NCBI GenBank assembly: GCA_937957915.1
Contig: CALGNZ010000028.1
Span: 47,736 to 111,735, forward strand
Source: an uncultured Granulosicoccaceae bacterium
GTDB taxonomy: Bacteria > Pseudomonadota > Gammaproteobacteria > Granulosicoccales > Granulosicoccaceae
Direction of reading: 5' to 3'
DNA length: 64,000 nucleotides
Shown here: one piece after another, positions 51,609 to 62,541 of the stretch
Numbering within the stretch: the stretch's first letter is position 1
How the letters are laid out: every line of letters starts with the position of its first letter
Program-made: the position numbers and the translations under genes
The notes under the pieces: model-generated
What the model saw: the letters and a program-made list of their open reading frames with translations, nothing else
The model's database searches: none
What the model was told of the DNA's origin: nothing

Positions 51609-53687
51609 TCAAAGCGTCTTCAGATACTCTATCAGCGCGCTCTTTTGCTCTTCTGTGAAGACCGGACCAATTACGCCGTTCCTTGCGTAGTCGTCGTGAT
51701 CTGCTGGCCCCTCGAAACTGTGTCCGGTATTGTGATTGCCGGCCTCGCGTGTATCGAGCACGAAAAATCCATCATCGCTGTAGTAGGAGCCAACCGCTTT
51801 CTCCTTACCATCGACAACTTGCCGGTTTAGTTTTTCCACTTGTGCGCTTTGCCTGACCCCCACTTTTTTAACATCGAATTCCTGCGAGCCAAGCTCCACG
51901 AAAACCGGCCGCTTGCTGGCTGGTGTTAACAGGTCATCCAGAGTGGCCACCGATCCATTGTGCAAATACGGAGCTGTCGCCCAGACTCCGTTCAATGGAC
52001 GCGCTTTGTAACCTGCGCCTGCCTGCAGGCAATTCGGTCGCCCACCTTGCATTTCAGTTCTTGCAGAGGGTGATGTGTAGTTTTGGCTAAACCACTGCTG
52101 GTTGGTGCGTTCAACAACGGCACCCAGACTTAAGGCATAGCTGGCGCTTTCGCTGTCGTTTAAGTCAACGTACTTGAGTGCCGTGGTTTCCGGCTGTCCG
52201 TCACCGGGGCTAAACGTTACGACCGTGCAGACTTCAGTATCAAGGTTCAGTCCGGTTGTATTGACACGTCGGCTTGTTAGCACCTGAGACTGCCCGGGGT
52301 CAGTACCAATGTCCTGCTGTTTGATTATTTTCAATTTCAGATAGGGCTCATCAGTGGCGAGGAGCTCATTGTCGTTGGCATAGTAACGGATGGGCTGCCA
52401 GTGTTTATCGCTCCAGAATTCAGCTGAGTCAGTGCTCGGCAGGTGACAACCCGCACAGTGATTCTTATACAGTTTCGCCCCCTCATCTGCCAGCTTCTGG
52501 TCAGGAGCCGGTAACGATGCCGGCCATTTCGGTGATTTCAGTCCATTGAACTCCGGGTTTTCACTTTCGCCCGTCAACGGGTGAGTGCCACTTAGCCATT
52601 GTTCCATCTTGTGCAAATTCGCCATATTAATAGACGATGCAAAGCGCTGATTGTCTGGTGCCCGGGTATCAAGATAGGCTTTTACACCGAGTGCTTCACC
52701 GGCATTGCGAATTAACGGTTGCATGATTGAACCGTCGTATTGCACCCAGTCGAACCATGATGTAGTCCAGATATGCGGGTAGGTGACCGGTGCATTGACC
52801 ACGCTGTAGTTTGCCGGACGCTCCATATCAGTGGCGAACACCTGATTGCCAATTCGATTAAGTGCGTCATTACGGGTAAAACCTTCGGTAACCTTTATGA
52901 TATCCGAAGTCTTTTTCAACAAAGTAACGGTAGACTGCAGCTCATCTTTCAGTTTGCTTTTAGTCAGTACGTTATTGTTTTTGCCCAACACGCGCTCGGC
53001 GAATCGATCAAAGCGCGCATTGAGCAAGTTAAAGTTACTTGATAGTGCCGTCTGTCCAAGCGCCGCACCAATGGATCGTGAGAAAAGCCCAAGGTCAGTA
53101 ACCGCTGGTCCTCCGTCGACTATGTACCGTGTATTGTTGTGGGTGAACTGGCCGGTATGACATGCCGCACAGGTAAATCCCATTGTCGGCGCATGCCGAT
53201 CAATGCCGGGCAGGTAGATGCTGGGTGTTTTGGTTAGTCCGATTGGCAGCCCGTCCGGGTTGTAGGCAGATTCACCACCGCGGATAAATCCGTGTCTGTA
53301 AATAAAATCTTCTATAAACACGGCTTTGTCAGAGCCAATATCGATCAGCGATCGTATCGGGCCCGCCTGCGGCGCTTCGAGGGCCAAAAACCACTCGTAC
53401 GGGATTGGCACAGTGGCAGTGCCCTGAGAGGCGAAATGAAACCAGTCAGAGGTTTGTCCGTCGGCGCCGGTTTTGTTTATGAATTCCTCGTTTTCTACCC
53501 GGGTTAACTGTGGAAGATCGGGTGGTGACAACGCCAGCTCAATTTTCAGGAAAAAGTAATAGGTCCGCAAGAGGGTGATGAGTACGTACGCGACTATCGC
53601 CAGTATTACAAGGCTGGTGATGAATGTTTTAGGACGAGATTTAAACAGCCGACCTACTAAACCTGACCTTGCGACAGCAGAAGACAT
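51609..53687 (-). CDS. RoxA-like membrane-anchored dihaem cytochrome c (peroxidase/oxygenase family)
   Basis: 692 residues from ATG 53687, which has GGAGGGT at ideal distance; the track start at 53708 is seven codons longer. An N-terminal anchor (TFITSLVILAIVAYVLITLL) places the rest in the periplasm. Two haem motifs: FTCAACHTGQ and NHCAGCHLP. SWFDWVQYDGSI, SSINMANLHKME and YKARPLNGVWATAPYLHNGSV are the segments I associate with rubber oxygenase RoxA and its relatives (di-haem peroxidase-like). In RoxA the protein is secreted; here it seems membrane-tethered. Whether it cleaves polyisoprenoid-like substrates, acts as a peroxidase or something else is open. Confidence 0.88.
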   Translation of the reverse strand: MSSAVARSGLVGRLFKSRPKTFITSLVILAIVAYVLITLLRTYYFFLKIELALSPPDLPQLTRVENEEFINKTGADGQTSDWFHFASQGTATVPIPYEWFLALEAPQAGPIRSLIDIGSDKAVFIEDFIYRHGFIRGGESAYNPDGLPIGLTKTPSIYLPGIDRHAPTMGFTCAACHTGQFTHNNTRYIVDGGPAVTDLGLFSRSIGAALGQTALSSNFNLLNARFDRFAERVLGKNNNVLTKSKLKDELQSTVTLLKKTSDIIKVTEGFTRNDALNRIGNQVFATDMERPANYSVVNAPVTYPHIWTTSWFDWVQYDGSIMQPLIRNAGEALGVKAYLDTRAPDNQRFASSINMANLHKMEQWLSGTHPLTGESENPEFNGLKSPKWPASLPAPDQKLADEGAKLYKNHCAGCHLPSTDSAEFWSDKHWQPIRYYANDNELLATDEPYLKLKIIKQQDIGTDPGQSQVLTSRRVNTTGLNLDTEVCTVVTFSPGDGQPETTALKYVDLNDSESASYALSLGAVVERTNQQWFSQNYTSPSARTEMQGGRPNCLQAGAGYKARPLNGVWATAPYLHNGSVATLDDLLTPASKRPVFVELGSQEFDVKKVGVRQSAQVEKLNRQVVDGKEKAVGSYYSDDGFFVLDTREAGNHNTGHSFEGPADHDDYARNGVIGPVFTEEQKSALIEYLKTL

Positions 53688-54228
53688 ACACCCTCCAGTA
53701 ACTTCCATGAAAAAAATCTACTCCAACATGCCGAATGAGTTGTGCACTCTCGCACGGCTTGTTGACACTATTTCTACGGTGTGCTGCGAAAAAGCATCCT
53801 AATTGCAGTATTTGCCAGCGCTGCAGTTAAATATCCAGTCACTATTAGTGCGTCGGGAGATCGAGAAAGAGGTTTCGCCGTGTGACTCCGGTTGCACTGT
53901 TTTCGATCTCGTAGGCCTTATTATAGGTTGGTTTTGTATGGTTGCTGAAAACACTGTTGCTGCATTACGCGATTCTAATTTCCAGCTAACAAGTAAACAG
54001 AATCCGCCAAGATATACATCACCTATTCGGGTTATGCCGTAAAACAACTGTTCTACGTTTCTACAAGAAACTCAATACAGTGGAGGGGGTACTACACGCT
54101 TGCATCGAGAGACTTGAACAGGTCTATCGAGTGAGTCTGGTTACTTTCATGCCGTTCAGGAGCTCCGGCACTGTAGGTTCGGGCCGCCCGGTTGGCATTT
54201 GTGTTAGGTCAGCAGTGAAAGAGACCTG
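53688..54228. other. Intergenic region downstream of the lipid operon
   Basis: 541 bases. Two overlapping ORFs of about 80 residues on opposite strands (53799-54047) cannot both be real; the plus-strand one contains a hydrophobic helix but has a TTG start with no ribosome site. Neither is called. Confidence 0.45.
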
Positions 54229-55224
54229 CTAGGTCGAGTGGCTACACGAAACTGTTCTGAATAATCCGGTTTTGCCGGATTGAAAAAAACCTCCTTGTTT
54301 TACTTGCTCGAGTACAACCTCTCCGGTGGAATCCATGGTCACCAGGGCAGTAAACACTAATGGCCTGAGTTGAGGCTCCAGTCTCCATTTTAGATCTTCG
54401 ACGAGCACGTACAGGGATCGTTGTTCGTTAACCAGTGTGTATACCGGCATATCAAATGTCACCAGCACTGCGCTAAGCAACTCATCGTTCTGACAAGCCG
54501 TGATTACCTTATCGAGGTGCCTCTGGTCGTAGTGGCCTGAGATGTGATGTTTTTGTTCATGCCAGGGTCCACGCCAAAGCAAATTCTGATAGGCGTATCT
54601 GTAACCGTCATCTTTTTGCAGAATAATCAACCAGCGAAATGGCGCAAGAAACCTCGGCTCAAGGTGCGCAAGGCGGTTACTGCCCAGGTCAGAGTGTCGG
54701 CTTGAATACCACGCGGTTAACGCATATCGGACGATTATGCCAAAAGAGAGGTAAATCAATAATGCGGCCATCCAGCGCACCGGGCTTGTAGAGAGTAAGC
54801 CAAAACCACATATCAGAATAACCACTGGGTCAAAGATAAAGTGGCTACGCGTAGTGAATCGGGTGGTGTTAAACGGATACAGCAGACATGTGCCGAAACT
54901 GGTCAATACATCAAGTAACAGATGAATGGTCGCGGCAGAGATACAGACGATAAGCACAACAGGCAGAGGTAGCGCTGTGGCAGACCACACTACCAACCCC
55001 AATACCGTGGCTAACAACAACGCAACCGGAATATTGTGAGCCACAATTCTGTGCATGGTCCATGCGGCTACTTTTCCTTTTAATTCGGCCAGAAAATCGA
55101 TGTCAGGAATCAAGCCCGCTATCAGACCAATGCAGATAAGACTGGTACTTGCTGTGGGCAGCATCAGTTCCGCCGCCACCGCACCCGTCAGCGCACCGCT
55201 TGTGGCATGACTTAAAGTATCCAA
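54229..55224 (-). CDS. DUF457-type membrane-bound metal-dependent hydrolase (YdjM-like)
   Basis: 331 residues if the start is TTG 55224, which yields (M)DTLSHATSGALTG, the canonical start of the family, has AGGG seven bases upstream and overlaps plsC by 13 bases; ATG 55269 in the track would overlap by 58. The first 200 residues contain four to five helices with conserved metal-ligand candidates (TLSHA, LIPDIDFLAELKG, MHRIVAHN, ATIHLLLDVLTSFGT). The C-terminal 130 residues are soluble. It ends the three-gene lipid operon. Function of DUF457 proteins is not established; phospholipase-like activity has been proposed. Confidence 0.85.
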   Translation of the reverse strand: MDTLSHATSGALTGAVAAELMLPTASTSLICIGLIAGLIPDIDFLAELKGKVAAWTMHRIVAHNIPVALLLATVLGLVVWSATALPLPVVLIVCISAATIHLLLDVLTSFGTCLLYPFNTTRFTTRSHFIFDPVVILICGFGLLSTSPVRWMAALLIYLSFGIIVRYALTAWYSSRHSDLGSNRLAHLEPRFLAPFRWLIILQKDDGYRYAYQNLLWRGPWHEQKHHISGHYDQRHLDKVITACQNDELLSAVLVTFDMPVYTLVNEQRSLYVLVEDLKWRLEPQLRPLVFTALVTMDSTGEVVLEQVKQGGFFQSGKTGLFRTVSCSHST

Positions 55225-56081
55225 TTGAAAGCCCTGTGTGTCACGGTTTTCCTGTTGGTCGAATGACATCCAAGCCGATTGTATTCATCAGAAATTCGCG
55301 TTTCGGCAAGATCAATTTTCTGCTCGATTGTCTCTGCGTCAATTGCAGACAGAATTGATAGCTCAATGTTTGTTGAAAAATTCGGTAGCTGATGCAACAG
55401 CTGCGATACGCTGCGACCCGTGGTGTAGAAATCACGGGTGCCTTTAATTACCACCGGTACAAGTATGGCATTGGGCATTTGCTCGAGTAAAATTCGCAGA
55501 CCATTTCGGCGAAAGGGCGCATTGTGTTCTGGTGTGGCCACAGACTTAACTCCCTCAGGAAATATTACAACGGCGCCGTTTATGGCGGCCTGTTCACTCG
55601 CAAATTCAGCGAGCATCGAATGGGAAGTGTGTTGGTTTTGCACGCGATCACCGGTTTTGAAGTGCGGCAAAGAGAAACAAAACTGACGCAGGTAGAAACT
55701 GATTAGCGGTATGTACTTGTCGAGTCCGGACCGGCTGATAAAACTGAATTTTCGCCCTTTAAGCAAGCCACCCAATACGTTTGTCAACAAGACAATATCC
55801 AGACAGGAATGGTGGCTGCTTACAAATATGATTGGTTTTTCTGTATCCCATTTTTCGCAGTTTGAGTTGGGATTCATGTGATAGTTAAACCTTGTACCCC
55901 AGGCTCGCATCAGCAATTGAACGAGGCAGGCTGTTTTACGTGTTAGTTCCTTCGCCAGTCGTTTATGCCCTAAAAGGCTTACGAGTTTTACTATCGGATC
56001 TGCGACAGTAATCAGGATTAGAAAGGCCAGCAGAACACAAGCCGAGATACACATATTGACCATTAAGAGCAACAGTTTCAT
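55212..56081 (-). CDS. 1-acyl-glycerol-3-phosphate acyltransferase-like protein (PlsC family)
   Basis: 289 residues from ATG 56081, one base after the previous gene's stop, with AGGTAG upstream. N-terminal membrane helix, then the acyltransferase motifs HHSCLD (HX4D), ISRSGLDKYIPLI, FPEGVKS (block III) and LVPVVIKGTRD. It would acylate lysophosphatidate or a related glycerolipid at the inner membrane. Being sandwiched between a lipid glycosyltransferase and a DUF457 protein, it may serve a special lipid rather than bulk phospholipid. Confidence 0.92.
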   Translation of the reverse strand: MKLLLLMVNMCISACVLLAFLILITVADPIVKLVSLLGHKRLAKELTRKTACLVQLLMRAWGTRFNYHMNPNSNCEKWDTEKPIIFVSSHHSCLDIVLLTNVLGGLLKGRKFSFISRSGLDKYIPLISFYLRQFCFSLPHFKTGDRVQNQHTSHSMLAEFASEQAAINGAVVIFPEGVKSVATPEHNAPFRRNGLRILLEQMPNAILVPVVIKGTRDFYTTGRSVSQLLHQLPNFSTNIELSILSAIDAETIEQKIDLAETRISDEYNRLGCHSTNRKTVTHRAFNWIL

Positions 56082-56082
56082 G

Positions 56083-57180
56083 CTACCTGGCTCCATTGAC
56101 AAGCCGCTGCACAAAATTACAATAGTCGATTTTCTTGCGGACCTTAGCTACGTTCCTTTGCAACCGATCCAGGTATTCTGTGTCACCGATTACTTTACAT
56201 AGAAATTCCGTTTGCTGATTCGAGTCTCTGCTTGCGATACCCAGTCCATTCTGCTCGATATAGGTAGTTTGAAAAACCTCGTGTGCGGTCCAGTCAAACC
56301 CTAAAACGGGTACACCGGCACTAATGCATTCGGACAACACTCCAGGGCTGGTTCGCACGAGCATCAAATCATAGTTGTGAAATGTTTGCGCTACGTTGTC
56401 AACATATCCATTTATCTTAAGATCAATAGTTTGAATGCCCTGTTTCATTTGCTCCATTGAATGTTTTAGTTTTTCGTTTTTGCCGCAAATGACGGTCAGT
56501 TCAATGTCAGTATTGCTACCTATTCGGCCTATTATTTCTACCAATCTATGAATCTGCCGGCCGTTAGAGCCATCCTGACCGGCAATGAGTAGCAGTTTCC
56601 AGGGTGCGTTAGCCTGCCGCATAACAGATTTATGCTGAAGCTCTTCTACAGGAACTATCTGCATCTTCGTTAGCGTTTTATCGGTATAGCCAATTGATCT
56701 GGCACGATTGACTCCTGAGTCGCTCACCACAAAAAGCTGATCGGTTTCTTTACCCAGCCACGCCCAGTGTGGATCGAAGTCTGTGACCACAATGCTAGTT
56801 TGTGGGGGACTGTTAAACTTCATCGCCAGCGATTTAAGTATTTGTGCCGGGTTAAAATGAACGGCAATGAGGTGACTGGTGTTTTTTGGCAGTTCTCGAG
56901 ATATCAAATGCAACATGTAACGGCGCATAAGCAATGAAATTACCTCGACTGCCCAGCGACGGTTAGTGATACGAAAAAATAGCCGCCATGCAAAGTCACT
57001 TTGATACCGGATTTTCGCCAACCCCGGCAAGCGGGATACGAGGTTGTTGCGGTAGATATCAATAATCTTATACTCGTATTGGTCTCCGTACTGTGCACGT
57101 ATGCGATTGACTATCGCCTTTGCAGCCGCATTATGCCCGCCGCCACTGGATGCACTTAATACTACAATTGCGCTGGTCAT
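56083..57180 (-). CDS. MGDG-synthase-like lipid glycosyltransferase
   Basis: 365 residues. AIVVLSASSGGGHNAAAKAIV is the glycine-rich start of the MGDG synthase/MurG-like GT-B enzymes, followed by an amphipathic region (MRRYMLHLISREL) and an acceptor domain with VTDFDPHWAW. The C-terminal donor domain has LLIAGQDGSNGRQI, ICGKNEKLKHSMEQM, INGYVDNVAQTFHNYDLMLVRTSPGVLSECISAGVPVL. Such enzymes add a sugar from UDP-sugar to diacylglycerol. In several marine bacteria glycolipids replace phospholipids under phosphate stress. It is the first gene of the operon. Confidence 0.9.
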   Translation of the reverse strand: MTSAIVVLSASSGGGHNAAAKAIVNRIRAQYGDQYEYKIIDIYRNNLVSRLPGLAKIRYQSDFAWRLFFRITNRRWAVEVISLLMRRYMLHLISRELPKNTSHLIAVHFNPAQILKSLAMKFNSPPQTSIVVTDFDPHWAWLGKETDQLFVVSDSGVNRARSIGYTDKTLTKMQIVPVEELQHKSVMRQANAPWKLLLIAGQDGSNGRQIHRLVEIIGRIGSNTDIELTVICGKNEKLKHSMEQMKQGIQTIDLKINGYVDNVAQTFHNYDLMLVRTSPGVLSECISAGVPVLGFDWTAHEVFQTTYIEQNGLGIASRDSNQQTEFLCKVIGDTEYLDRLQRNVAKVRKKIDYCNFVQRLVNGAR

Positions 57181-57454
57181 CTGTTCTTCTCGCTGGAAAT
57201 CCGCTTTGTGCTATTCGAAAGATATTTATCGGACTACGATAGATGATTGCAAACGGCGGATTTCGCATTCGTTTTGACAGTGTTAGTGTCTAAAACCCAG
57301 TTTCGACGATTTTGAATACGAATTGTGGGTAAAATTACCCGTTAGTAGCGGTAGACCTGCGAGTTATTTACTTCGTTTTTTTTGTACCCGTGGTTGAAAA
57401 GGTAAGTTTTCACACTCAATACGACGAGATAGCACTGAGTGATTCGATTGGTTG
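57181..57454. other. Promoter region of the lipid operon
   Basis: 274 A+T-richer bases upstream of the glycosyltransferase start. It must hold the minus-strand promoter. I looked for a Pho box by eye and saw no convincing pair of CTGTCAT-like repeats. Confidence 0.4.
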
Positions 57455-57883
57455 TTAGCCAACAGGTGCTCCGATTGCCGCAAGGCCTGCTCTTGCTACT
57501 TCCATGTCATCGCTATAGTGTCCACCAGATATTCCAATTGCACCGACTATTTTTCCATCTTCCACGATTGGATAGCCGCCACCAAATACAATCACTCGCG
57601 GGCAGGCGGGAAAGCCGTGCAAAAGCGGTGGATCGTTCTTAATGAAATCCCATAATGCATGGGTTGGCTGGCCAAATGATGCGCAGGTGTTGGCTTTGTC
57701 CTGAGCAATGTTCATGGTTGCCTCAGAGGCACCGTCCATTCGCAACGTGGCTTTGCTTATTCCGCCTTCATCGCAAATGGCAATGCTCATACTATGGCCA
57801 AGTTGTTTGGCTTTGGCGGCCGCTGCGGTAATGGCATTTTGCGCTGTTTGCGCATCGATACTGTGCTTGGTGAAGCTGGACAA
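57455..57883 (-). CDS. GlcG/HbpS-like haem-binding (DUF336) protein
   Basis: 142 residues, TTG start with GGAG upstream. AQNAITAAAAKAKQLGHSMSIAICDEGG, then RMDGASEATMNIAQDKANTCASFGQPTHAL and VFGGGYPIVEDGKIVGAIGISGG are classic GlcG/HbpS features. Relatives form octamers that bind haem or accompany glycolate and propanediol operons. It lies 120 bases upstream of no same-strand partner but follows the FadH-like gene in the same direction, so the two may be cotranscribed. Confidence 0.95.
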   Translation of the reverse strand: MSSFTKHSIDAQTAQNAITAAAAKAKQLGHSMSIAICDEGGISKATLRMDGASEATMNIAQDKANTCASFGQPTHALWDFIKNDPPLLHGFPACPRVIVFGGGYPIVEDGKIVGAIGISGGHYSDDMEVARAGLAAIGAPVG

Positions 57884-58003
57884 GGTGTGTATCTCCGTGT
57901 TCGAATCGAATAGTTATGTGACGATTGTTACTCGCTTGCTGGTTTGCAAATTCGGAATCTATCGCAACGATAAAATCATCTGCTAATATATTTCAAGTCA
58001 ATT

Positions 58004-59980
58004 TCAGGCGGCTTGTGAACCGATCGCTCGTGCTGCCGTATGTGCTTCGACCAATGCGTTGACCAGTCGCCGTGGTGACCAGGCATCGCCAACAATACTC
58101 ATTTGACTCTTTGGAAACCCAGCCTCGGTTAGATCATCTGCCAACTGGTTGTTGGCTGTTGCTGAACCCACCCAGACAATCGCACACACATCTTCAATCC
58201 AGCACTCACGTGCAGTCATATAGTGGCTGAGCTGAACACGCCCGTTGTCAATTCTGGTGACTTCAGTATTAGGTTTAAGATCGGCATTGTGTTGGTCGAG
58301 TTGCCTGATCAATGCTATGCGAGAAACCATTGGGAGTTCCCGGGTGATTTCAAAAAAGCGGCTCACGACTATGGGTCGCTTGCCCTGTGCGATAACACTT
58401 TCAGCGACAGCGGAAGTCCAGTAGTAGCCATCCTCGTCAACGATAATAACGTTATTACCAGGTCTGTCGGGAAGGTTCTTTTCACCGTCAGAACAAATCA
58501 CCGGCACACTTTGATCACCCGCTATAGCCGGCACGGTTGCCGTAGCACCAGTGGCGATCACGAGGTGGTCGGGTCTGGCTTCAAGCACAGAGTCAACAGA
58601 AGCTATGGTGTCGGTTTTGATCGTTACACCGGCTTTGATTACCTGCGGTATGAGAAAATCAAACAGGTGGCGCATCTCTTCGTGAAAGGGCACGCTGTGT
58701 ATGTCTTTGAGGCGCCCGCCTAAACGTGATTGCGCTTCTAGCAGGGTTACCTGATGCCCCCTTTTTGCCGCAACGCGCGCAGCCTCGAGGCCGCCAGGGC
58801 CGCCACCTATCACCAGTACCGTTCGCGACTGTGCAGCGCGATCCGTTTCCAGGCTGGGCCACAGATGCTCACGGCCGGCAACCGGGTTGGTTGCACAGGC
58901 GATGGGTTCCCCGGTAGATATCCATGCCCAGCACTGGTTGCAGGCAATGCAGTGGCGAATATCGTCAGGTTTGCCGGCACTGGCTTTTTTAGGCCATTCC
59001 GGGTCTACCAGCAACGCGCGACACATACCTACCATATCGGCTTCGCCGTCTTCCAGTAGTTGCTCTGCCTGTGCCGGGCGCTGGATTCGTGTCGAGGCTA
59101 TTACCGGAACATCTCCGGCCACAGATTTAAACTGCGAATGCAGGTTTTGATAAGCCAGAATTGGCCAGTGACGGTCAGGCAGATGAGTTTCAATGCTGTT
59201 GAAGTTGCCCTGGCTTAGCGATAGGTAGTCGACCAGTTGATCATCGCAAAAGGTTTTGGCAATCGCCAGCGTGTCTTCAACGCCCAAGCCACCGTCGGTA
59301 AACTCGGCGACTCCCATGCGGTAACCAACGATGTGCTGATGGCCAATTCGTTTGCGCACCTGTTGCAGTATTTCTCGTGCAAAACGCAATCTGTTTTCAC
59401 TGCTGCCGCCGTATTCGTCCGAACGTTTGTTGGTATAGGGCGAGGTGAATTGTTGAATCAAATGGCCTTGCGCACCATGGATTTCCACGCCATCCATCCC
59501 CGCCTCTATGCAGTGCACTGCACACATGACGTAGTTCTCTATCGTTTCTTTGACCTCGCGCGTGCTGAGTTCGTGTGGCACCCCTCCGCTGCGTGGGCAG
59601 GCGATCGCTGATGGTGCGATGGTAAAAGGCATCACGCGTGAGGCCAGATGCTGGCGCCCACCCATATTCAACTGACCTATCAGTAATGCACCTTCGGCAT
59701 GGCAGACATCGGCAATGCGCTTTAACCCTTCGATACTACTGCGATCAAAAATAACCAGTGCACTTGGGCCGAAAGGCTCCTGTGCGGTCATACGCATCGC
59801 TTCGGTAACGATGGTGCCGGTGCCGCCTTTGGCTACTGTGCGATAAAAAGCCAGCACACGTTCGCCAACCGTGTTGCCGTCTGCCAGATTTGCGGTAGTG
59901 GCCACGCGCATAATTCGATTTTTCGCGCTTTTTGAGCCGATAGCGATAGGCGTGAATAGCTGCGGAAAGTGTGCATTCAT
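58004..59980 (-). CDS. FMN/4Fe-4S/FAD NADH:flavin oxidoreductase (FadH/TMADH family)
   Basis: 658 residues from ATG 59980 (ATG 59992 also in frame). OYE barrel with FTPIAIGSKSAKNRIMRVATTANLADGN, VEIHGAQGHLIQQFTSPYTNKRSDEYGGS; four cysteines in CIACNQCWAWISTGEPIACATNPVAG for the iron-sulfur cluster; then VIGGGPGGLEAARVAAKRGHQV and a second dinucleotide fold. The HGAxGHLIxQFxSPxxNxRxDEYGG motif fits both 2,4-dienoyl-CoA reductase and related demethylases/reductases. It is a second member of the family in this window (25585), with a similar architecture. Substrate unknown. Confidence 0.9.
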   Translation of the reverse strand: MNAHFPQLFTPIAIGSKSAKNRIMRVATTANLADGNTVGERVLAFYRTVAKGGTGTIVTEAMRMTAQEPFGPSALVIFDRSSIEGLKRIADVCHAEGALLIGQLNMGGRQHLASRVMPFTIAPSAIACPRSGGVPHELSTREVKETIENYVMCAVHCIEAGMDGVEIHGAQGHLIQQFTSPYTNKRSDEYGGSSENRLRFAREILQQVRKRIGHQHIVGYRMGVAEFTDGGLGVEDTLAIAKTFCDDQLVDYLSLSQGNFNSIETHLPDRHWPILAYQNLHSQFKSVAGDVPVIASTRIQRPAQAEQLLEDGEADMVGMCRALLVDPEWPKKASAGKPDDIRHCIACNQCWAWISTGEPIACATNPVAGREHLWPSLETDRAAQSRTVLVIGGGPGGLEAARVAAKRGHQVTLLEAQSRLGGRLKDIHSVPFHEEMRHLFDFLIPQVIKAGVTIKTDTIASVDSVLEARPDHLVIATGATATVPAIAGDQSVPVICSDGEKNLPDRPGNNVIIVDEDGYYWTSAVAESVIAQGKRPIVVSRFFEITRELPMVSRIALIRQLDQHNADLKPNTEVTRIDNGRVQLSHYMTARECWIEDVCAIVWVGSATANNQLADDLTEAGFPKSQMSIVGDAWSPRRLVNALVEAHTAARAIGSQAA

Positions 59981-59992
59981 GGATCTCAGCAT

Positions 59993-60425
59993 GCGTTATA
60001 TCGCCACGAGATTCAATATCGAATTAGCCAGAGGTATATTTGTGAAAGTCTGATGTTATGTGTGTACTGGCTTGAGGACGTTTGATTTTTTGGTGTTTAA
60101 GAATTATCGGGTACCTACCAAAGTGGTGGCACGATACGTACGATAAAACAGATGGGAAACACAAAGCGTTTGCTTTGCCTGCGTTTAATCTTAAAATGCC
60201 GGAGGCACCCGTACGATCGGTGCGGGGCGCGTCGCTCGCTGACAACCTGCGACCGACCGCAAAAGACTTTTGCTACGCTCTTGCTTTTCAAAAATGAAGG
60301 CCCCGGCAGGGGTGTTTATATGCGAGCGCCACTGGAGTGGTCAAACTTAAAATCCAGATTGTAAGCTGTGTAACAGCGCACCGCTTGCCGGGGCATTACC
60401 TTTTAGTTGGCCTTTGCTTCAGCAA
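59993..60425. other. Intergenic region with long-range inverted repeat
   Basis: 433 bases without a supportable gene. GCCCCGGCA (60300-60308) and TGCCGGGGC (60386-60394) are a perfect 9-base inverted repeat 77 bases apart; the second is followed by ATTACCTTTT. A small structured RNA is possible but not demonstrated. Confidence 0.35.
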
Positions 60426-61905: not shown

Positions 61906-62541
61906 ATGCTGTCAAAACTGAGCCAAACCCGGTTAACCTGGTCAGATATAGTGAACATTAAAACGAATTTTACAAGCGGGATGCTACGGTGCCTGACGAT
62001 GGCGGTGCTTATAACCGGTATATGGTCAATTGCCAAAGCGAACACCAGTATTAGCACTGACGATGCCTTTACCCTGAATCTAACCAACGTCGATATCCGA
62101 TCGTTAATTGAAACCGTTTCCAAACAGACCGGAAAAAATTTCATCGTCGATCCCCGGGTAAAAGCCACCGTCACTGTCATATCGGCAACGCCCGTCAATG
62201 CAGATAAACTCTACGACTTGTTTCTGTCGGTATTGAGTGTGCACGGATACGCTGCGGTACCAGCTGGCAGTGTAACCAAGATAGTGCCGCTGGCAACCGG
62301 TGTGCAAAGTGCGCTGCCAGTGCTGTCAGATAGTGGAGAAAGTGGCGACGAACTGGTAACCAGAGTAGTTCAGGTTGAATATGTGTCTGCGCAAAAACTA
62401 GTCGAGGCATTGCGACCACTGTTACCTGAAACAGCCACCGTTGGTGCGGAGCCAGATTCCAACACCGTTGTCATCACCGACAGCGCTGATAATATAGAAC
62501 GGGTGATCGAAATAATACGCCTGCTGGATCGTGCCCGGTAA
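61906..62541 (+). CDS. Secretin-like protein consisting only of GspD N0-N1 domains
   Basis: 211 residues; ATG 61981 (MLRCLTMAVLITGIWSIAKA) may be the real start since it begins the signal peptide. The mature part has the N0 domain of type II secretins (FTLNLTNVDIRSLIETVSKQTGKNFIVDPRVKATVTV, then LYDLFLSVLSVHGYAAV) and one N1 repeat (VVQVEYVSAQKLVEALRPLLP, then EPDSNTVVITDSADNIERVIEIIRLLDRA). It stops right there, without N2, N3 or the secretin pore. No other gsp gene is adjacent. Either a truncated gspD duplicate or a soluble periplasmic accessory. Confidence 0.85.
   Translation: MLSKLSQTRLTWSDIVNIKTNFTSGMLRCLTMAVLITGIWSIAKANTSISTDDAFTLNLTNVDIRSLIETVSKQTGKNFIVDPRVKATVTVISATPVNADKLYDLFLSVLSVHGYAAVPAGSVTKIVPLATGVQSALPVLSDSGESGDELVTRVVQVEYVSAQKLVEALRPLLPETATVGAEPDSNTVVITDSADNIERVIEIIRLLDRAR

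Follow-up and report, generated by a model that had tools for sequence, protein, structure and literature searches.

A rare three-gene operon encoding a glycosyltransferase, a PlsC-like acyltransferase and a DUF457 membrane protein in a Granulosicoccaceae genome, and its possible role in membrane glycolipid formation

On the minus strand of the window, which denotes here the whole 64,000-nucleotide stretch analysed from an uncultured Granulosicoccaceae bacterium, a gene for a glycosyltransferase (GT) is followed closely by genes for an acyltransferase and a DUF457/YdjM membrane protein. The question raised by this arrangement is whether the three products serve one pathway and, if so, on which lipid they act, since an operon tying a DUF457 member to a lipid GT and an acyltransferase points to a concrete, testable substrate class for the former.

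Organization of the three-gene unit

The members of the trio and the junctions between them are listed in Table 1. The acyltransferase gene starts with the ATG at nt 56081, one base past the GT stop codon, and its end overlaps the start of the DUF457 gene. Both junctions, TGA-G-ATG and ATGGACTCAGTAA, were the same in the one relative found in a species-level genome collection, a 5,831-base MAG contig of Granulosicoccus sp. (L002); because they are identical there, they are not products of chance. For the DUF457 gene, an ATG start at nt 55269 was given in the mechanical ORF list, whereas comparison with L002 favoured the TTG at nt 55224, as proposed in the sequence-only reading that preceded this analysis. 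Nucleotide differences between the window and L002 were most frequent at third, fewer at first and fewest at second codon positions (249, 172 and 127, respectively, in the GT gene), which is the order that purifying selection on protein-coding genes would produce. The trio is probably a translationally coupled operon, and the earlier proposal that the three genes form one unit was borne out, with the ORFs lying where they had been placed and both the 1-base gap and the 13-base overlap repeated in L002.

Table 1. Positions of the three genes, their junctions and the upstream stretch in the window
Feature	Position (nt)	Strand	Evidence or remark
GT of the MGDG-synthase/UgtP type, 365 aa	56083..57180	-	PF06925; PDB profile matches 9wde and 4wyi; MGD1 fold; tree
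PlsC-like membrane acyltransferase, 289 aa	55212..56081	-	PF01553; hydropathy; alignment with L002 and L045
DUF457/YdjM membrane protein, 331 aa, TTG start	54229..55224	-	PF04307; 28-member alignment; AF2 model
1-base spacer between GT stop and acyltransferase start	56082..56082	-	Equal spacing in L002
13-base overlap of acyltransferase end and DUF457 start	55212..55224	-	Equal overlap in L002
Intergenic stretch upstream of the operon	57181..57454	-	Pho-box match ≤11/18

Sequence and structural features of the three products

The GT matched PF06925 (MGDG_synth) with 57.5 bits (Pfam curated cut-off 25) and, over residues 4–351, NCBIfam NF010135 (diglucosyl diacylglycerol synthase) with 80.4 bits against an equivalog cut-off of 500. 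Its only significant PDB profile matches were 9wde (76.9 bits, the best), which is the processive diacylglycerol beta-glucosyltransferase UgtP/YpfP of Bacillus, and 4wyi, the plant enzyme MGD1; MurG was absent among them. The AF2 model of the GT (pLDDT 77) had MGD1 as its top fold match, with E 1.5e-16 for 4wyi and 2.1e-14 for a second MGD1 entry; natural-product GTs with GT-B folds ranked next, and the best MurG match had E 8.7e-9. In the tree, MurG was split from the trio GT with 100/100 support. Assignment as a MurG was thus ruled out by tree, profile and fold, which agree with the MGDG/UgtP type to which the sequence-only reading had assigned the protein. The two trio GTs formed a long branch of their own (2.67 changes per column), with no settled place among the PF06925 enzymes.

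With MGD1, the plant chloroplast MGDG synthase of family GT28 (4wyi/4x1t), the trio GT shares PF06925, the GT-B fold and the GGGH loop; when the structures are matched, the two are about 18% identical. The N-terminal loop GGGHNAAA and the motif TDFDPHWAW (TDFxxHxxW) were kept, the invariant residues being G13, G15, H16, T133, D134, H138 and W141, and a turn ahead of the conserved Glu, SPG in the trio GT and GPG in MGD1, is a further common feature. In contrast, the donor loop had diverged, reading RTSPG(V/I)LSE and DW(T/S)AHE (RTSPGVLSE ... DWTAHE in the window) versus KPGGITLTE/KAGPGTIAE and GQE in UgtP/MGD1: the KPGG and PGQE motifs of UgtP were lacking, and AHE and RTSPG stood for the GQE and KAGPG of MGD1. 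Within the donor motif SPG(V/I)L ... AHE, Glu284, Pro291 and Glu301 were kept, with His in place of Gln. The GT probably transfers a sugar to a diacylglycerol-type acceptor, and we infer that the chemistry is the same and the donor sugar possibly different; since the donor loop departs from those of both UgtP and MGD1, the enzyme may use another donor or even another acceptor. Unlike MGD1, the trio GT is encoded in a bacterial operon together with an acyltransferase and a DUF457 protein.

The acyltransferase matched PF01553 with 37.5 bits (Pfam cut-off 23), possessed a single N-terminal hydrophobic segment in its hydropathy plot, and had the motifs HHSCLD (HX4D) and FPEGVK (FPEG) intact in an alignment with L002 and L045; a profile comparison with solved structures revealed no relation. 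Against TIGR00530 it scored 24.4–25.9 bits (cut-off 102.95), whereas three other genes of the genome scored 90.6 (L073), 65.1 and 39.7 bits. Because these three fit better, the acyltransferase of the trio is not the housekeeping PlsC (1-acylglycerol-3-phosphate acyltransferase), a role for which L073 is a stronger candidate.

The product of the third gene matched PF04307 (YdjM), which we take to be the current name of DUF457, with 81.7 bits (Pfam cut-off 29). DUF457/YdjM is SOS-linked in E. coli. Alignment of 28 relatives showed Asp40, Asp42, His57, Arg58, His62, Asp104 and Asp131 to be invariant and His100 nearly so (numbered from Asp1 after the start residue), and the trio protein keeps all eight of these residues although it is only ~20% identical to its family relatives. 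Stand-alone YdjM/YfhP proteins share with it PF04307 and all invariant Asp/His positions, but mostly carry MDSxTQ and HRxFSHS where the trio protein has DTLSHA/DSVTHA and HRIxxHN. In its AF2 model (pLDDT 85.1), the N-terminal domain was helical and the C-terminal one rich in beta structure. A fold search of the PDB returned nothing below E 0.05, the listed matches having query TM-scores below 0.2; a viral library gave just two short nameless matches (E about 2e-3), and a profile search against solved structures gave none. With fold and profile matches absent, a PlcP-like (calcineurin-type) fold was ruled out, and the comparison with PlcP drawn in the sequence-only reading did not hold, PF04307 being a family distinct from the calcineurin-type phosphoesterases. 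Since the Asp/His residues presumed to bind metal do not vary, we nevertheless infer that the protein may release diacylglycerol.

DUF457/YdjM proteins were present in 28 of 57 genomes scanned. Stand-alone DUF457 genes in the family had no recurring lipid-gene neighbour, and the larger clusters among their neighbours looked like shadow ORFs of DUF457. In daptomycin-adapted S. aureus, the YdjM-domain gene yfhP was mutated repeatedly alongside mprF and cls2, both phospholipid genes, and a putative phospholipase function for Gram-positive homologues of yfhP was mentioned by one paper (PMC10215302, PMC11540788); deletion of yfhP alone left antibiotic MICs unchanged (PMC10215302). No reaction was found in the literature for DUF457/YdjM proteins.

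Distribution and genomic surroundings

The evidence for the trio comes from two loci, the window and L002, the latter on a 5.8-kb MAG contig. L002 (G035 of the whole-genome set) belongs to the window's own family and to a different genus; its genes are arranged in the same order, with protein identities of 42% (GT), 38% (acyltransferase) and 46% (DUF457). The neighbourhood is therefore not unique to the window's genome: trio, order and junctions recur, and the unit is conserved. Neither of the two outcomes that would have refuted the sequence-only reading, a placement of the GT with MurG and a neighbourhood confined to one genome, was thus observed. Upstream of the trio, L002 has the end of an ABC-transporter gene and a large membrane transporter-like ORF (by sequence reading alone), and the window has HbpS-like and OYE-family genes; because the flanks differ, the trio appears to travel or persist independently of its surroundings.

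Within the family, the trio GT was present in 2 of 48 genomes, and among the 36 scanned for both genes, GT and acyltransferase co-occurred in two, the remaining ones having neither. Trio-type DUF457 scored above 640 bits in the two trio genomes and at most 84.5 bits in every other relative. No further trio GT was detected in evenly drawn samples of 369 class genomes and 399 phylum genomes; PF06925 genes of any kind, at E 1e-8, were found in seven genomes of the class sample, a count that includes the window's genome. In a congener (G011), the HbpS-like/OYE-family pair is 82.6% identical in DNA to that of the window; the match ends at window nt 57459, beyond which there is no trio. Because this congener keeps the flanking pair without it, the trio is accessory, gained in the window's lineage or lost in the congener. 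No close plasmid relative was found; as to a defence or phage origin, there was no PADLOC match, and a match to a PHROG 'hydrolase' was weak. The GC3 of the GT and acyltransferase genes deviated by just 1.2 s.d. below the window mean, so that the signature of horizontal transfer in base composition is weak. Structured RNA families were not detected in the window. The trio is a genuine, conserved and rare accessory operon; its parts are of known kinds, and their three-gene combination is uncommon.

The flanking pair shared with G011 spans nt 57455–60021 on the minus strand, its OYE-family member being mycofactocin FadH/OYE-like; this OYE gene was not found at E 1e-100 in the other twelve congeners.

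Other proteobacterial PF06925 genes have partners different from those in the trio, namely an MFS-PlsC fusion in L008, an LpxL-like acyltransferase and an RND pump in L009, and YkoP and a polysaccharide deacetylase in L057 and L059, both from other Gammaproteobacteria; a deacetylase also adjoins the PF06925 gene in L058 and L060. DUF457 was absent among the examined neighbours in L008, L009, L057 and L059. These lipid- and sugar-modifying neighbours, together with the phosphatase of the Caballeronia cluster described below, support a lipid-glycan role in a general way. The recurring set of GT, YkoP and deacetylase (L057:4619-7219 and L059:1192-3995) might make a deacetylated amino-sugar lipid. 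On a Caballeronia plasmid (L049:3674-6608), a PF06925 GT occurs with a hypothetical protein, a tyrosine/dual-specificity-type phosphatase and a DUF218/YdcF protein.

Proposed pathway and alternative readings

The reading that we prefer, and to which we give about an even chance, is that the trio is an accessory operon for one membrane glycolipid of the glycosyl-diacylglycerol type, with the acyltransferase and DUF457 preparing or modifying the lipid and the GT adding the sugar. The substrate of the acyltransferase would be a lysolipid at the inner membrane, as in the conversion of lysophosphatidate to phosphatidate, or else a hydroxyl of the glycolipid itself; DUF457, as a metal-dependent hydrolase, would free diacylglycerol from a phospholipid or phosphatidate, which is the weakest step of the scheme; and the GT would move a sugar from a nucleotide-sugar onto the diacylglycerol-type acceptor. 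With its donor-site loop altered, the GT may use a sugar other than plain glucose or galactose. No biochemistry for the trio subfamily was found in the literature. Few glycolipid systems are on record for proteobacteria, and the trio would extend them by a route that does not depend on a GT4 enzyme. That DUF457 is a dedicated phosphatidate phosphatase or phospholipase C, in a self-contained and undescribed glycolipid route whose GT28 enzyme has a new donor specificity, seems rather unlikely; if true, this would be the first defined reaction for a widespread uncharacterised membrane family.

The place of the acyltransferase allows another, tentative ordering of events, in which the GT makes a glycosyl-diacylglycerol, the acyltransferase then acylates a hydroxyl of the sugar, and an acyl or head group is trimmed off or recycled by DUF457. 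Such an ordering would suit an enzyme that falls far behind L073 as a housekeeping PlsC (25.9 versus 90.6 bits with TIGR00530), and other GT28 genes adjoin acyltransferases of LpxL or MFS-PlsC type; the motifs, however, are ordinary for the PlsC type and the sequence does not fix the acceptor. We regard this ordering as rather unlikely. Improbable in our view is an acceptor other than diacylglycerol, with the trio forming part of a surface polymer or secondary-metabolite pathway. The long branch of the trio GT, its altered donor loop and the rank of natural-product GT-B folds directly after MGD1 would accord with it, but the best profile and fold matches are diacylglycerol glycosyltransferases, TDFxxHxxW is kept, and none of the flanking genes examined was identified as a polymer, Wzx/Wzy or PKS/NRPS gene.

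The glycosyl-diacylglycerol reading shares its proposed logic, a lipid hydrolase adjoining a diacylglycerol glycosyltransferase, with the PlcP-Agt operon of marine bacteria and Pseudomonas. That operon, however, has a GT4 Agt, a calcineurin-type PlcP and Pho boxes, none of which is found in the trio, which has PF06925/GT28 and PF04307 instead. GT4, and not GT28, is the family of Agt/GTcp, the enzymes for phosphate-saving glycolipids in marine bacteria (PMC8231724), and these glycosyltransferases act together with PlcP (PMC4796936, PMC8528852). These differences bear on the link to phosphate saving suggested in the sequence-only reading, by which DUF457 would replace PlcP and free diacylglycerol under phosphate limitation for the GT to make MGDG. 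Upstream of the operon, where a Pho box had been suggested as a check, the best match in nt 57181–57474 was 11/18. The window's genome (89% complete) has six PF00149 genes, assigned to LpxH, ApaH, a 5'-nucleotidase, SpdA-like and YaeI-like proteins and one without a name, and no evident PlcP was seen among them in a search without a PlcP sequence as query; the PlcP slot might thus be free. The GT is indeed of the diacylglycerol-glycosyltransferase type, and the conserved Asp/His set of DUF457 is carried by a membrane protein, but DUF457 and PlcP differ in family and fold, and nearly all relatives lack the trio. With no Pho box found upstream, and with a characterised marine system that pairs a GT4 enzyme (PMC8231724) with PlcP (PMC4796936), the phosphate-saving link is unsupported, and we consider such remodelling improbable.

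Two further genes of the window lie to either side of the trio. Of the domains of a GspD-type secretin, a 211-aa ORF at nt 61906–62541 on the plus strand has just N0 and the first secretin-N domain, and no pore domain follows; the gene is truncated, or else its product is an unusual N-domain protein that stands alone. At nt 51609–53708 on the minus strand, a di-heme cytochrome c peroxidase family protein is encoded, in which there is a short motif of RoxA-like kind (NCBIfam NF040606, 449 bits).
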